Below are positions 25,506-30,595 of a stretch of 64,000 nucleotides of DNA, one piece after another. Numbering within the stretch: the stretch's first letter is position 1; each line of letters begins with the position of its first letter. Made by a program: the position numbers and the translations under genes. The DNA is from Candidatus Aenigmatarchaeota archaeon (GTDB lineage Archaea > Aenigmatarchaeota > Aenigmatarchaeia > PWEA01 > JACQIF01): positions 641,018 through 705,017 of the forward strand of contig CP066684.1 in NCBI GenBank assembly GCA_016432325.1, given 5' to 3'. The notes below the pieces were generated by a model. That model made no database searches, was not told the origin of the DNA, and saw only the letters and a program-made list of their open reading frames with translations.

Positions 25506-25524
25506 TTACCACCGTCGGTGGTAA
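25506..25524. promoter_or_regulatory. ACCACC...GGTGGT palindrome
   Basis: TTACCACCGTCGGTGGTAA between the divergent winged-helix and thpR genes, adjoining the thpR TATA box (AGCTTTATTTCC, 25529-25540). Related to the two palindromes at 17246-17313. Confidence 0.5.
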
Positions 25525-25559
25525 GGAAGCTTTATTTCCAAGTGCGCGGATCTATACTC

Positions 25560-26114
25560 ATGCGTTTGTTCATCGGTCTCCCATTCGAGAATTCATCGAG
25601 GCCAGCGATAGCCAGGCTCCAGCTCGAGGCCCAACACTGCATTAAAATGACGCCTGTCGCTCCAGGAAACCTTCATATGACTGTCAAGTTCATTGGAGAC
25701 GCAGAGAGTGACAAAAAAGGAGATATTATAAGGGTTTTGGAGGGCCTGAAAAGCTCTTTAAAACCGTTTTCCATAGACCTTCGTGGCGTTGGGGTCCTTC
25801 CTTCTCCTCAAAAGCCAAACGTTCTGTTGATTAGAATGGCAGACGATAGTGCGATGACCGAACTCATGAAAACCGTCGCCGTCGCACTAGAAAAGGCCGG
25901 TTTCCTTAGAGAGACAAATGAGATAAAACCGCATCTTACCATAGGCCGCATCAAGTTCGTGAGTGACAAACGCGCGTTCCAAGGCTTCCTTCTGAAGCAT
26001 TCTAAAGACTCTTTTGGCGAGATGCGCGTGAATACCCTAGTGCTATATGAGAGCATTTTACAGAGCGAGGGGCCTGTTTACAAGAAGCACTACGAAATGA
26101 GGTTTGGAGAGTGA
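25560..26114 (+). CDS. thpR: RNA 2',3'-cyclic phosphodiesterase
   Basis: 184 residues. Opens 2',3'-cyclic phosphates and can join tRNA halves through 2'-5' linkage. Both catalytic HXTX motifs are present: HMTV (about 39-42) and HLTI (about 125-128), with MRLFIGLPF at the start. ATG 25560 fits leaderless transcription from TATA 25529-25540; the frame is open upstream to 25518 but lacks promoter support. Relevant in a genome rich in tRNA introns, whose exon ends carry such phosphates. Confidence 0.9.
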   Translation: MRLFIGLPFENSSRPAIARLQLEAQHCIKMTPVAPGNLHMTVKFIGDAESDKKGDIIRVLEGLKSSLKPFSIDLRGVGVLPSPQKPNVLLIRMADDSAMTELMKTVAVALEKAGFLRETNEIKPHLTIGRIKFVSDKRAFQGFLLKHSKDSFGEMRVNTLVLYESILQSEGPVYKKHYEMRFGE

Positions 26115-26485
26115 CACGTTCAAAGATGCTTTGGGTGTGTTTGTCACTCTCTTTGATCGGTCTGTTCCTTTTGGCAATCGGTGTCTCGCTCAGAGAACCG
26201 GTCGCTGTCACACTCGATGAGGTATCTGTGTCTTCTGTTGGAGATTTGGTCAGTGTGACAGGTGTCGCAGAGAACGTACAATATAAGAATGGTAACCTTT
26301 TCTTCAGATTGGCTAGTGAGACGGGTTCTATACGCGCAGTAATGTTCGAGAGTGACATAGAACGACAGGGGCTCGATCCCTATATGTTGGAAAATGGCCT
26401 CGAATTGATCACAGAAGGCCGTATTCAAAGGTATAAGGGCATGCTGGAACTTGTCGCACAGCGTGTCACTCTTCTGTCTCGCTAG
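26111..26485 (+). CDS. membrane-anchored OB-fold protein
   Basis: 124 residues; GTG start overlaps the thpR stop (GTGA). One N-terminal membrane helix (about 8-26), then an OB-type nucleic-acid-binding fold: VSSVGDLVSVTGVAENVQYKNGNLFFRLASETGSIRAVMFES and ELITEGRIQRYKGMLELVAQRV. Resembles single OB-fold tRNA_anti-like domains. Its end overlaps tgtA by 20 nt on the opposite strand. Confidence 0.7.
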   Translation: MTRSKMLWVCLSLSLIGLFLLAIGVSLREPVAVTLDEVSVSSVGDLVSVTGVAENVQYKNGNLFFRLASETGSIRAVMFESDIERQGLDPYMLENGLELITEGRIQRYKGMLELVAQRVTLLSR

Positions 26486-28184
26486 TGTGACGGATTGAGA
26501 CTGCGACACCGCGGTCGCTGTCACTAATCTCTTCAGCAGACAGAAGGGCTGTTCCACAGGACAAAAGGCGGTCCTTTTTGTCCACGACAAAAACTTCTTC
26601 GCCCGCGCGTACGTTTTCGCAACGGGTCACGAACTTGCAGAAGACCGAACGGCCCTGCAACGCGAACGGCACGGCGTCCTTGTTCACGTACACGCGCTTC
26701 TCAGGCGCACGCACGCGTTTATGAAGCGCCTTGGCGCCTTCAAATGTGGGGACGAACAGTCCGTCGCCTGCACGGATGGTTCCAACCATCACGTCGCCGT
26801 CGTACACGCGCCTGATGCGACCTGTCTTGCCTGAGACGTCCACGCGCACGCGCCTGAACACCCGATTTGCGCCTTTAGCATAACAGTAATCGATGACGGC
26901 ACGCGCCGCCTTAACCGGATCTGCCTGGCCTTTGGCTTGTTCCAAAGTTATGCTCTGGCCAATCGGGTAGATGCCCAGCAGTTCAATGGGCACTCGGCCA
27001 AACGGCGCCTTCGTAACGTAGCGGGAGCCGCGGACGCGCTTCACGTGTTCTTGGACGCGCACTGTCTCCGGCCGATAGGCCGACTCCTCGCCTGTATAGA
27101 AGAACGCGCTCTTCTTCGAAACCGGCTCCAGCTTTTGGAAGTATTCCTTGTGTTTCTTCAGAACGTATAGCAGTCCCTCCAACAGTTTCGGATGCGCTCT
27201 CACGCGCTGCGCAACCAGCTCCCACAGCCACTGCTCGCGGATTGCCTGACGAACGAGCCTCATCTCCGCGGCCGTGACGTGAAGGTTATGCAACGCAAGC
27301 GTCCGTTCGCGATCAACCTCGTTCATCTTGTAAAGCTCTTGCGGCGTGTGCGTCGCGCAGACGGAGCATGCGCACGGGAACTCCTTTAGCGTGCCGAGTT
27401 CGAGCGTGCCGTTGACTGTCAAATAACCGCCCCTGCGCGCAGCGAGTGCGTACATCGCGCTGTCGAAAAGGTCGCAGCCCAGAGCCGCAAGCAATGCGAA
27501 CGACATCGGATGGCCCGCGCCGAAAGCATGCACGGGCTTGTTGTGCGGGAGCGCCGCCTTGCACGTGGCGATGATGTCCGCGAGCCTCGCGTATTCATAA
27601 CGTTCCATGTATGGCACGATGCCTCCGATTGCGTGAATGTCAAAGTCGTGCTTTGCCGTGAGCGTCGACGCGCGCGTGCGCAGGTCAGGAAAGCGGCCGC
27701 CTTGTATCGGACCGACGGTAAGCGTACCTTCCTTCCTTGCAAGAGCTTTGTATCTCTTCTCGGTCTCCAGCATCTTCCTCTTCGCCGACGCGTGATCGTC
27801 GACAGGAAGCGTGAAGACGTCGAGAGGCGTTATGATATTCGAGCCGATGTCCTGTTGAAACGTAAAGGTCTCCTTGGGGTCGATGGTGCCGACGCCCTGA
27901 GAATACATCTGGAACGCCCCGGAGTCCGTGTATATCGGGCCTTCCCAACCCAGGAACTTGTGGATTCCCTTTTGCAGGACCTCTTCGCGCCTAGGCGAAC
28001 GCATGATAATGTAGGAGTTTGTGATGAGCAACGAGAACCCGAGCTTCGCTATTTCATGCGGTTTGATGAGCGAGATGTTCGGGTTCATGACTATGGCGAT
28101 GTTCGGAGTCTCGAGAGTCCCGCGGGGCGTGTCCCACTTTCCCAGACGTGCGGCGGCGTCTTTGGCGATGATTTCGAAGGGCAT
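26466..28184 (-). CDS. tgtA: archaeosine tRNA-guanine transglycosylase
   Basis: 572 residues. Exchanges guanine 15 of tRNA for preQ0. TIM-barrel domain with TDSGAFQMYSQG (catalytic Asp about 91), QDIGSNIITPLDVFT, GPIQGG and AIGGIVPYMERYEYARL; zinc site CACSVCATH (about 272-280) with a later His. C-terminal domains follow, ending in a PUA domain (about 480-560: VRAGDGLFVPTFEGAKAL, CENVRAGEEVFVVDKK) that binds the tRNA end. Divergent partner is the RaSEA/ArcS-like fusion that would finish archaeosine. Confidence 0.95.
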   Translation of the reverse strand: MPFEIIAKDAAARLGKWDTPRGTLETPNIAIVMNPNISLIKPHEIAKLGFSLLITNSYIIMRSPRREEVLQKGIHKFLGWEGPIYTDSGAFQMYSQGVGTIDPKETFTFQQDIGSNIITPLDVFTLPVDDHASAKRKMLETEKRYKALARKEGTLTVGPIQGGRFPDLRTRASTLTAKHDFDIHAIGGIVPYMERYEYARLADIIATCKAALPHNKPVHAFGAGHPMSFALLAALGCDLFDSAMYALAARRGGYLTVNGTLELGTLKEFPCACSVCATHTPQELYKMNEVDRERTLALHNLHVTAAEMRLVRQAIREQWLWELVAQRVRAHPKLLEGLLYVLKKHKEYFQKLEPVSKKSAFFYTGEESAYRPETVRVQEHVKRVRGSRYVTKAPFGRVPIELLGIYPIGQSITLEQAKGQADPVKAARAVIDYCYAKGANRVFRRVRVDVSGKTGRIRRVYDGDVMVGTIRAGDGLFVPTFEGAKALHKRVRAPEKRVYVNKDAVPFALQGRSVFCKFVTRCENVRAGEEVFVVDKKDRLLSCGTALLSAEEISDSDRGVAVSIRHTSETEE

Positions 28185-28202
28185 GGACAGAGGGGCCGCG
28201 TA

Positions 28203-28215
28203 GCTTATTTAAAGC
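28203..28215. promoter_or_regulatory. shared TATA box of the archaeosine gene pair
   Basis: GCTTATTTAAAGC, a near palindrome 18-20 nt from both ATG codons (28184 minus, 28235 plus). One element would co-express both genes. Confidence 0.6.
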
Positions 28216-28234
28216 TCGTTCTTGAACGCTTCTC

Positions 28235-29578
28235 ATGAAATCCCCCCAACTCCGCGAACGCACCATGATATTGTCTTCAGGCCGCTGCGCGTGGGCCAAG
28301 TGCATGTACTGCGGCTACGGCAAGCTGAAGGAAGAGCGGCTGGGCGGCGATGCGCTCAAAGAGCAGATTGACAACTTCTTCAACGGCGTTGAGCCGGGCG
28401 TCGACGTCCTGCGCGTCTATGTTTCCGGCAACGTAACAGACCGCGCGCAGGTGCCTGTCGAGACGCAGGCGTACATGGTCCAGAAGTGCAGGGGGTTCGG
28501 AATACGCACGCTGCTCGTGGAGACGCTCCCTCAATTCGTCAGCGAGAAGACGCTCGAACCGTTCAAAGGCTCTGGCCTTCGCATGGTCTTTGCGATGGGT
28601 CTTGAATGCTACGACGATGCGCTTCGCGCAAAACTGCAGAAGGGATTCACGCGCGCAGATTTCGAGAAGGCGTGCGCGCTCATACGCGCGAACGGCTGGG
28701 GCGTTAAGACGTATCTGCTCGTCAATCCTCCGTTCTGTGCGGATGTGAAAAAAGACGTTGACGACTCCGTGGCGTATGCGTTGAAATGGGCAGACGAAGT
28801 CACGCTCATAAACTGCCAGCCGCACGCGGGCACAGAGCTCCATGCGATGCACGAGCGCGGCGAATGGAAGCCGCTAGACAAGGCGCAGTTCTTTGACGCG
28901 ACAAAGGAGTGGCTCTCTGACGCGCGCGTGCGTTATGACGCGACGCAGTACGCGCCCTTCCCGTCATGGAAGTCGTGGCTGCCGCAATTCAAGGAGCAGA
29001 CGCCTCTTGTCGGGACTGGCGGCGAGTTTCTGGAGAACGAAGTGTACGACCGCTGGCAGAAGTTCATCTGCGAGCGTTACGTCGTCCGCGATGAGCGCAA
29101 GACCGCGCTGTTCATACCGTGTTCGTATACGAAGCCGTACATCAACGGGCCGCTGCATAGGGCGATATGGAGGGTTCTGGATAGTTTCGATGCAGAGGTC
29201 AAGCAGTCCATCCATCTCGTCGTCATTTCGTCTCCGGGCGTCATACCAATAGAGTTCGCGGACTACTATCCATTCAACGCATACGACTGGAAGCCGTGGG
29301 AGGAGACTGCGTCCATCAAGGAGGCGTATACGCGCGTAACGAAGAAGCGGCTCGTCGACTATCTCAAGGCGCACAAGTACGAGCGCGTGCTGTGTTACTT
29401 CACTATGGACGCAGAGTCTTATGACGCGCTCAAGCAGGCGTGCAACGAGCTGGGCGTCGAACTGATAACGTGCCTGAGAGAAGAGACTTGGTCGCTCATC
29501 AAGGACGAGAAGAACGCGCTCACGCGGCCCGAGGCGCTGGAGGATTTGAAAGGCGCGCTCACGGCGGTTCGCGCCTAA
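28235..29578 (+). CDS. radical SAM (RaSEA) - ArcS domain fusion
   Basis: 447 residues. N-terminal radical SAM domain (about 1-270): iron-sulfur motif GRCAWAKCMYCGYGK (Cys18, 23, 26), as in RaSEA, which converts lysine-bound preQ0 to archaeosine. C-terminal domain (about 290-440) has LFIPCSYTKPYINGPLH, matching the ArcS signature PCX3KPYX2SX2H except Gly for Ser, then PGVIPIEFADYYPFNAYD. ArcS attaches lysine to preQ0. Normally ArcS and RaSEA are separate proteins; here both appear in one chain. No PUA domain. Divergent from tgtA. Confidence 0.85.
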   Translation: MKSPQLRERTMILSSGRCAWAKCMYCGYGKLKEERLGGDALKEQIDNFFNGVEPGVDVLRVYVSGNVTDRAQVPVETQAYMVQKCRGFGIRTLLVETLPQFVSEKTLEPFKGSGLRMVFAMGLECYDDALRAKLQKGFTRADFEKACALIRANGWGVKTYLLVNPPFCADVKKDVDDSVAYALKWADEVTLINCQPHAGTELHAMHERGEWKPLDKAQFFDATKEWLSDARVRYDATQYAPFPSWKSWLPQFKEQTPLVGTGGEFLENEVYDRWQKFICERYVVRDERKTALFIPCSYTKPYINGPLHRAIWRVLDSFDAEVKQSIHLVVISSPGVIPIEFADYYPFNAYDWKPWEETASIKEAYTRVTKKRLVDYLKAHKYERVLCYFTMDAESYDALKQACNELGVELITCLREETWSLIKDEKNALTRPEALEDLKGALTAVRA

Positions 29579-29620: not shown

Positions 29621-30577
29621 TTAAGGCGGGTCTGCCCGAACGGCAGAGGATTCCATCCGCTCGCGTACTTGATTAATATACAGCGCTATAGAACGGAGCG
29701 ACGGTTCGCTTATATTGGCCTTTGCTGTCACCTCTATCTGCGTCATATAGTGTCCTCTTTCATTGGCCGCGACGTATACGATGCCTGCCGCCAGCATGGT
29801 GGGTTTGTGGGCTCTTCCCGGCAATCGTTCAATCGCCGAGCACAACTCCAACGCATCCTGTTGGATACGAGGCGGAACGCTCAGCGCCTCGCACAATCGC
29901 GGAACGAAGGCTCGCGCGGACGACTGGGTATTCTCGAGTCCGTCGAGATTCCGCAGCAACGTCTTATACGTCCTGAGAGCGGAACGCTTGTCGACGCCTA
30001 TGATATCTTTGAAATCGGTGGGCACTATGCCAAGGGATAAATCCTTGCCGGCGGCGTATAGAGACGCCGCTGCCACATCCTCCGTGCTCCTGCCCCTGAG
30101 ATAGTTTCCAGCGTGCGCTTTCCTGTATATCGCCACTGCCCTCTCTTCCAAAGCGGATGGGAGTTCTCTTGCGGCAACGTAGTCCTTGATTATGACAAGG
30201 CCGTTGTTCAGCGTTCTCGATCGAGAGCTGTGAAACGTCGCGCGCGTATTCTGTTCTATCATGCGCCGCCACTGGAGCCTGTTCCCCACAGGCGCGCCCC
30301 ACGAATCGCGGAGGTCTGACGAGATGACGCTCCCGAGGCCCCTGTCGTGTCGCATCAGAGTTGTCTTATGGTCGTGCAGTCGCTTGTCCGCTTGCTCTTT
30401 ATCATACGCACGCTCATGTCTTCCATTATCTATCTGCTTGTCGCGAACGACTACGCCGCAGCCGCCGCAGTAGGTTTCGCCGCGCCTGGAATCGGTATCA
30501 AGCCTTCCTCCGCATTCGGGGCACGCGGTAAGCAGTTCTATTTCAACGTTCCTTATCACAATCGCCTCTGTGGCCAT
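29621..30577 (-). CDS. tfb: transcription initiation factor B
   Basis: 318 residues from ATG 30577 (an in-frame start at 30595 adds six). Recruits RNA polymerase to TATA-bound TBP. N-terminal zinc ribbon CPECGGRLDTD-ETYCGGCGVV (about 18-43), B-reader region RLHDHKTTLMRHDRGLG, then two cyclin repeats (about 115-205 and 215-310), the second with the DNA-binding MTQIEVTAKANISEPSLR. Normal length. Overlapping layout with the next gene upstream (18 nt gap). Confidence 0.93.
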   Translation of the reverse strand: MATEAIVIRNVEIELLTACPECGGRLDTDSRRGETYCGGCGVVVRDKQIDNGRHERAYDKEQADKRLHDHKTTLMRHDRGLGSVISSDLRDSWGAPVGNRLQWRRMIEQNTRATFHSSRSRTLNNGLVIIKDYVAARELPSALEERAVAIYRKAHAGNYLRGRSTEDVAAASLYAAGKDLSLGIVPTDFKDIIGVDKRSALRTYKTLLRNLDGLENTQSSARAFVPRLCEALSVPPRIQQDALELCSAIERLPGRAHKPTMLAAGIVYVAANERGHYMTQIEVTAKANISEPSLRSIALYINQVRERMESSAVRADPP

Positions 30578-30595
30578 TTGAATCACACGCGGCAC

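Follow-up and report, generated by a model that had tools for sequence, protein, structure and literature searches.

The fused gene and its domains

We analysed a window of 64,000 nucleotides from the genome of a Candidatus Aenigmatarchaeota archaeon (contig CP066684.1, positions 641,018 to 705,017), in which a gene encoding a radical S-adenosylmethionine (SAM) domain joined to an ArcS-like domain lies divergently beside tgtA, the gene for archaeosine tRNA-guanine transglycosylase. In T. kodakarensis, ArcS puts lysine on preQ0 in tRNA and RaSEA turns the adduct into archaeosine; the two are separate proteins which carry out both steps as a complex, and ArcS can also transfer lysine to the free preQ0 nucleoside (PMC11298593). 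The original prediction, made from sequence alone, was that ArcS and RaSEA activities are fused here in one protein, and that this protein and TgtA form a two-gene archaeosine module.

The gene is a single ATG-to-stop frame of 447 codons for amino acids that fills its interval exactly (Table 1). RaSEA (TIGR01210) was the top NCBIfam match of the N-terminal half, covering residues 10-213 and model positions 17-229 of 313 (E 2e-32), and the general Pfam Radical_SAM family matched residues 15-163 barely above its cut-off (E 5.6e-07). The predicted CX4CX2C motif is present and reads C18-AWAK-C23-MY-C26. In the C-terminal half, Pfam DUF5591 (PF17884) matched residues 273-416 (E 1e-16; 61.5 bits against a gathering score of 26), and NCBIfam matches were limited to the two ArcS models, NF040592 and NF053620, the former spanning residues 246-414 and model positions 254-413 of 575 (E 1.1e-14). 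The motif PC-X3-KPY-X2-S-X2-H, which we take to be the defining signature of the ArcS core, reads P295-C-SYT-K300PY-IN-G305-PL-H308 in the window protein, with every position kept save the predicted change of S305 to glycine. The PIEF-YP block of the original prediction was also located.

An AlphaFold model of the whole protein was consistent with this division, with two confident domains, a predicted local distance difference test (pLDDT) score of 91.5, and low confidence confined to the N-terminus and to residues 239-251 between the domains. The C-terminal part modelled alone (residues 258-447) reached a pLDDT of 96.4. Foldseek matched the whole model to radical SAM enzymes such as Elp3, viperin and MiaB, and the sole significant fold match of the C-terminal model in the PDB was AF0587 (2q07; E 1.1e-05), to which the same domain also gave a profile match (E 1e-17). 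The ArcS-core model additionally resembled uracil-DNA glycosylase folds (SMUG1, UdgX) at a sub-significant level (E 0.05-0.2, TM score about 0.5), a likeness that may hint at the origin of the domain.

Table 1. Coordinates of the fused gene, its predicted domains and motifs, and the adjoining tgtA within the 64,000-nucleotide window.
Feature	Position	Strand	Basis
tgtA, archaeosine tRNA-guanine transglycosylase, 572 aa, C2 and PUA domains, divergent neighbour	26466..28184	-	TIGR00432; Pfam TGT, TGT_C2, PUA
Divergent spacer between the two start codons, 50 bp	28185..28234	.	One TATA-like box TTATTTAAAG at 28205-28214
Fused RaSEA-like radical SAM and ArcS-core (DUF5591) protein	28235..29578	+	Open reading frame, translation, Pfam, NCBIfam, 55 full-length homologues
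Radical SAM domain, aa 10-213	28262..28873	+	Best NCBIfam family RaSEA; Foldseek radical SAM matches of whole model
Predicted [4Fe-4S] cluster motif C18-X4-C23-X2-C26	28286..28312	+	Invariant in 56/56 fused homologues
Inter-domain linker, aa 239-257	28949..29005	+	Low model confidence at 239-241 and 249-251; gene boundary of split pairs falls here
Predicted ArcS catalytic core / DUF5591 domain, aa 258-447	29006..29575	+	Pfam, NCBIfam, structure model, AF0587 match
ArcS signature P-C-X3-K-P-Y-X2-[S to G]-X2-H, aa 295-308	29117..29158	+	Conservation in 56 homologues
PIEF-YP block, aa 338-347	29246..29275	+	P338, Y345, P346, F347 invariant in 56/56

The fused architecture is widespread in archaea

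Fifty-three loci from a scan of named genomes, together with whole-genome searches, yielded 56 non-redundant full-length fused proteins including the window protein. The genomes that carry them, Thermoproteota bins included, bear names such as Aenigmatarchaeota, Altiarchaeota, Micrarchaeota, Nanoarchaeota, Diapherotrites, Nanohalarchaeota, Desulfurococcales, Thermofilaceae and Methanomethylicota; metagenome bins are called here as their depositors named them, and some are possibly misbinned. The fusion is thus not peculiar to the organism of the window, since dozens of other archaea carry the same fused protein, and among the RaSEA-like genes found in the searched genomes of Aenigmatarchaeota and Thermoproteota it is the most frequent form. 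No description of this architecture came up in the open-access papers searched, though the original 2019 RaSEA paper may mention it; it is absent from the main text of a survey of archaeal fusion proteins.

All 56 proteins contained both Pfam Radical_SAM and DUF5591 and matched RaSEA and both ArcS NCBIfam models. The three cysteines C18, C23 and C26 never varied, nor did C296, K300, P301 and Y302 of the ArcS signature, and G335 was likewise invariant, as were the PIEF-YP positions listed in Table 1. Position 308 was His in 45 proteins and Trp in 11. In two of the genomes (G291 and G333; loci L191 and L192) the fused protein is accompanied by a further, stand-alone DUF5591 protein of 260-270 residues.

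Partnership with tgtA

The product of the divergent neighbour passed the TIGR00432 equivalog cut-off (465 against 350 bits), and its PUA domain also scored above cut-off. The original prediction had the two genes sharing one TATA box. The spacer indeed holds a single TTATTTAAAG box, midway, with 20 bp to each ATG, and the layout recurs in distant relatives: L049 has an identical TTATTTAAAG box in a 49-bp divergent spacer, and L079, L080 and L081 have a TTATTAAAGG box in divergent spacers of 51 to 53 bp. A lone box so near both starts would fit leaderless divergent transcription.

This partnership extends across genomes. The fusion was present in 14 of 156 Aenigmatarchaeota genomes, and TgtA scored above cut-off in all 14 of these compared with 3 of the 142 others (hypergeometric P 2e-17, shared ancestry ignored). 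In the 12 genomes with both genes on one contig they were divergent in every case, and the distance between match ends ranged from some tens of bases up to 4.2 kb. In relatives with gaps of 0.8-4.2 kb the intervening genes were variable, and no common archaeosine-related partner was seen among them by eye. A TgtA match was also found in 37 of 41 further fusion genomes.

The other neighbours in the window encode transcription factor B (29621-30595, minus strand), a LigT-like RNA phosphoesterase (25518-26114, plus strand) and a small OB-fold protein (26111-26485, plus strand). No tRNA gene lies within the window.

Archaeosine genes elsewhere in the genome

The genome consists of one 874,769-bp contig and has an estimated completeness of 90%. 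Family searches of it identified one DUF5591 protein, one RaSEA-like protein and one TgtA, and no QueF. A separate ArcS or RaSEA encoded elsewhere would have spoken against the original prediction, and none was found. Since these searches found no other DUF5591, RaSEA-like, QueF or QueC/GAT-QueC gene, the fused protein is the only archaeosine-synthase candidate of the genome. Four QueC-like matches were rejected: three proved on scanning to be other PP-loop enzymes (ThiI-like, NcsA-like and Dph6), while L034, the fourth, resembled a longer ThiI-type protein when inspected by eye.

Split pairs and single-domain relatives

The RaSEA-like and DUF5591 halves are encoded by separate, adjacent and overlapping genes in four genomes of Thermoproteota (L180 to L183). 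In each of these, RaSEA was the sole NCBIfam match of the radical SAM gene; those DUF5591 genes that were checked matched ArcS models only. Such unfused neighbours might suggest that two adjacent genes had been read as one through an assembly or gene-calling artefact, a reading we reject, along with chance, given that the frame runs stop-free across the junction in all 56 non-redundant proteins, which come from many assemblies made independently. Of 349 Thermoproteota genomes sampled, none had a canonical RaSEA above cut-off, and a RaSEA-like match at 1e-15 was present in 13: 10 with fused genes, 2 with adjacent pairs and 1 with a gene broken by contig ends. The occurrence of the same two domains in both fused and neighbouring forms is strong evidence that they act together, like the Euryarchaeal complex.

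In a tree of the core domain, the fused proteins formed a group that also took in the split pairs and the viral single-domain proteins. Outside this group lay the TgtA C1 domains and the single-domain proteins of Thermoproteota; the joining of these latter two long branches was flagged as possibly false. Because the viral branches are long and the tree does not include Euryarchaeal ArcS, we draw no order or date of fusion from it. In many TgtA proteins some 540 residues long (L138, L140, L145 and others), as in a 685-residue frame of G091 (L102/L103), the C1 region scored above the Pfam DUF5591 cut-off, which shows homology between the TgtA C1 domain and the ArcS core.

Stand-alone DUF5591 proteins of 180-250 residues were also observed in Thermoproteota (L137, L139, L143, L148, L149, L154, L155, L157 and L164). 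There was no RaSEA-like gene in the fetched flanks of these genes (L193, L194 and L195), and a gene of about 325 codons for a product with weak TgtA similarity immediately adjoined the DUF5591 gene in L193 and lay about 1.4 kb off in L194. These proteins may act in a different 7-deazaguanine pathway.

Searches of plasmid and phage collections gave radical-SAM-only Streptomyces matches and DUF5591-only phage and virus matches, none of them fused, and matches in IMG/VR (L198-L202) were likewise DUF5591-only. The Streptomyces proteins, from plasmids NC_023283.1 and NC_023285.1, are 28-30% identical to the RaSEA-like half (E 4e-13), with no ArcS core in the match. The DUF5591-only proteins (H3-H12) come from Sulfolobus viruses STSV1 and STSV2, Vibrio phage nt-1, Synechococcus phages and viral contigs. 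Most carry the annotation hypothetical and one is labelled an acid phosphatase; they may have a part in the 7-deazaguanine modification of viral DNA.

Proposed function of the fused protein

Taken together, the domain matches, the invariant residues, the lack of another candidate found in the genome, the split-gene counterparts and the association with tgtA indicate that the fused protein is very probably a single-chain archaeosine synthase acting after TgtA. TgtA would first exchange G15 of the tRNA for preQ0. The C-terminal ArcS core would then couple the side-chain amine of lysine to the preQ0 nitrile, giving a preQ0-lysine amidine, and the N-terminal radical SAM domain, using SAM and a [4Fe-4S] cluster held by the CX4CX2C motif, would cleave the lysine C-N bond to leave the formamidine of archaeosine. 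We infer both reactions and their order in the fused chain from the T. kodakarensis enzymes (PMC11298593). As T. kodakarensis ArcS is active on the preQ0 nucleoside, the ArcS core alone could suffice for the lysine step; and as the fused chain has no PUA domain, the tRNA would be held by the chain itself or by TgtA.

Several observations weigh against this assignment. The fused protein did not reach the equivalog cut-off of either RaSEA (112.7 against 212.15 bits) or ArcS (54 against 440 bits), the final quarter of the RaSEA model was unmatched, and a Pfam scan found neither the TGT-like nor the PUA domain of ArcS. The predicted fusion of ArcS therefore stands for the catalytic core and not for the full protein, and with cut-offs missed and these domains absent the fused protein is not classed as RaSEA or ArcS. 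Four of the 41 further fusion genomes gave no TgtA match; these four are possibly incomplete. Family searches of the window's genome found neither QueC or GAT-QueC for preQ0 synthesis nor a YhhQ-type preQ0 importer, so that the two-gene module covers the tRNA-level steps and not the supply of preQ0, which is probably taken up from outside by some route. The last of these observations is the residue at position 305, which is Ser in 55 of the 56 proteins and Gly in the window protein alone. The closest relative found (L036, also named Candidatus Aenigmatarchaeota), whose contig matches G091, a genome placed in the same order as that of the window, carries S305.

Gly305 is encoded by GGG, and even the closest serine codon is two substitutions away, so a single-base error does not account for it. 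The family could be an archaeosine synthase in which this one member, with its unique glycine, has weakened or altered lysine transfer, so that little archaeosine is made or another nitrogen donor is used. We consider this unlikely, because the remaining core residues are kept in the window protein (including C296, K300, P301, Y302 and H308), the fused frame is intact in a single-contig genome with an intact tgtA, and the replacement of His308 by Trp in 11 relatives indicates that the motif tolerates change. Less likely again is that the fused enzyme acts on a substrate other than preQ0-tRNA, such as the free preQ0 nucleoside, DNA or another modified base. A chain with no PUA or TGT-like domain, the acceptance of the free nucleoside by T. 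kodakarensis ArcS (PMC11298593) and the existence of DUF5591-only proteins in viruses would all suit such a role; however, the near-perfect co-occurrence and conserved divergent layout with TgtA, the tRNA G15 enzyme, argue for tRNA as the substrate, as does a genome in which no other archaeosine synthase was found.

A single-chain archaeosine synthase would assign a probable function to a family present in many uncultured archaea, in groups where our searches found no canonical ArcS or RaSEA. The fusion also provides an independent line of evidence that ArcS and RaSEA function as a single machine, and suggests that the TGT-like and PUA domains of ArcS are not needed for the reaction. With the system reduced to two small domains, its structure and radical chemistry should be easier to study. 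More tentatively, the fused proteins may represent a further main type of archaeosine synthase in DPANN, Altiarchaeota and parts of Thermoproteota: a compact chain performing both steps with no recognised tRNA-binding domain, relying on a complex with TgtA or on tRNA recognition by its radical SAM and core domains alone, and possibly older than Euryarchaeal ArcS.

Comparison with known systems

Two alternative enzymes, GAT-QueC and QueF-like, serve as archaeosine synthases for the last step in Crenarchaeota (PMC5485725). GAT-QueC is, like the window protein, a fusion, but the domains of both enzymes are unrelated to those of the fused protein, and neither was found in its genome. AF0587 of Archaeoglobus fulgidus (2q07) shares the ArcS-core fold and the signature PC-X3-KPY-X2-S-X2-H, and differs in being a 306-residue chain with no radical SAM domain, the match spanning its first half (residues 21-149). 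For the N-terminal half, a counterpart is offered by queuine lyase, a radical SAM enzyme acting on a 7-deazaguanine, whose structure (PDB 6p78) gave a profile match over positions 3-197 (E 1.9e-14); this is a bacterial salvage enzyme that acts on free queuine and has no ArcS core. The Euryarchaeal ArcS-RaSEA complex (archaeosine synthase alpha/beta) consists of two chains where the fused protein is one, and its ArcS carries the TGT-like and PUA domains where the fused protein has the ArcS core alone, leaves the C-terminal quarter of the RaSEA model unmatched and scores under both equivalog cut-offs. What the two have in common is an ArcS/DUF5591 core with PC-X3-KPY, a RaSEA-type radical SAM domain and TgtA as partner.
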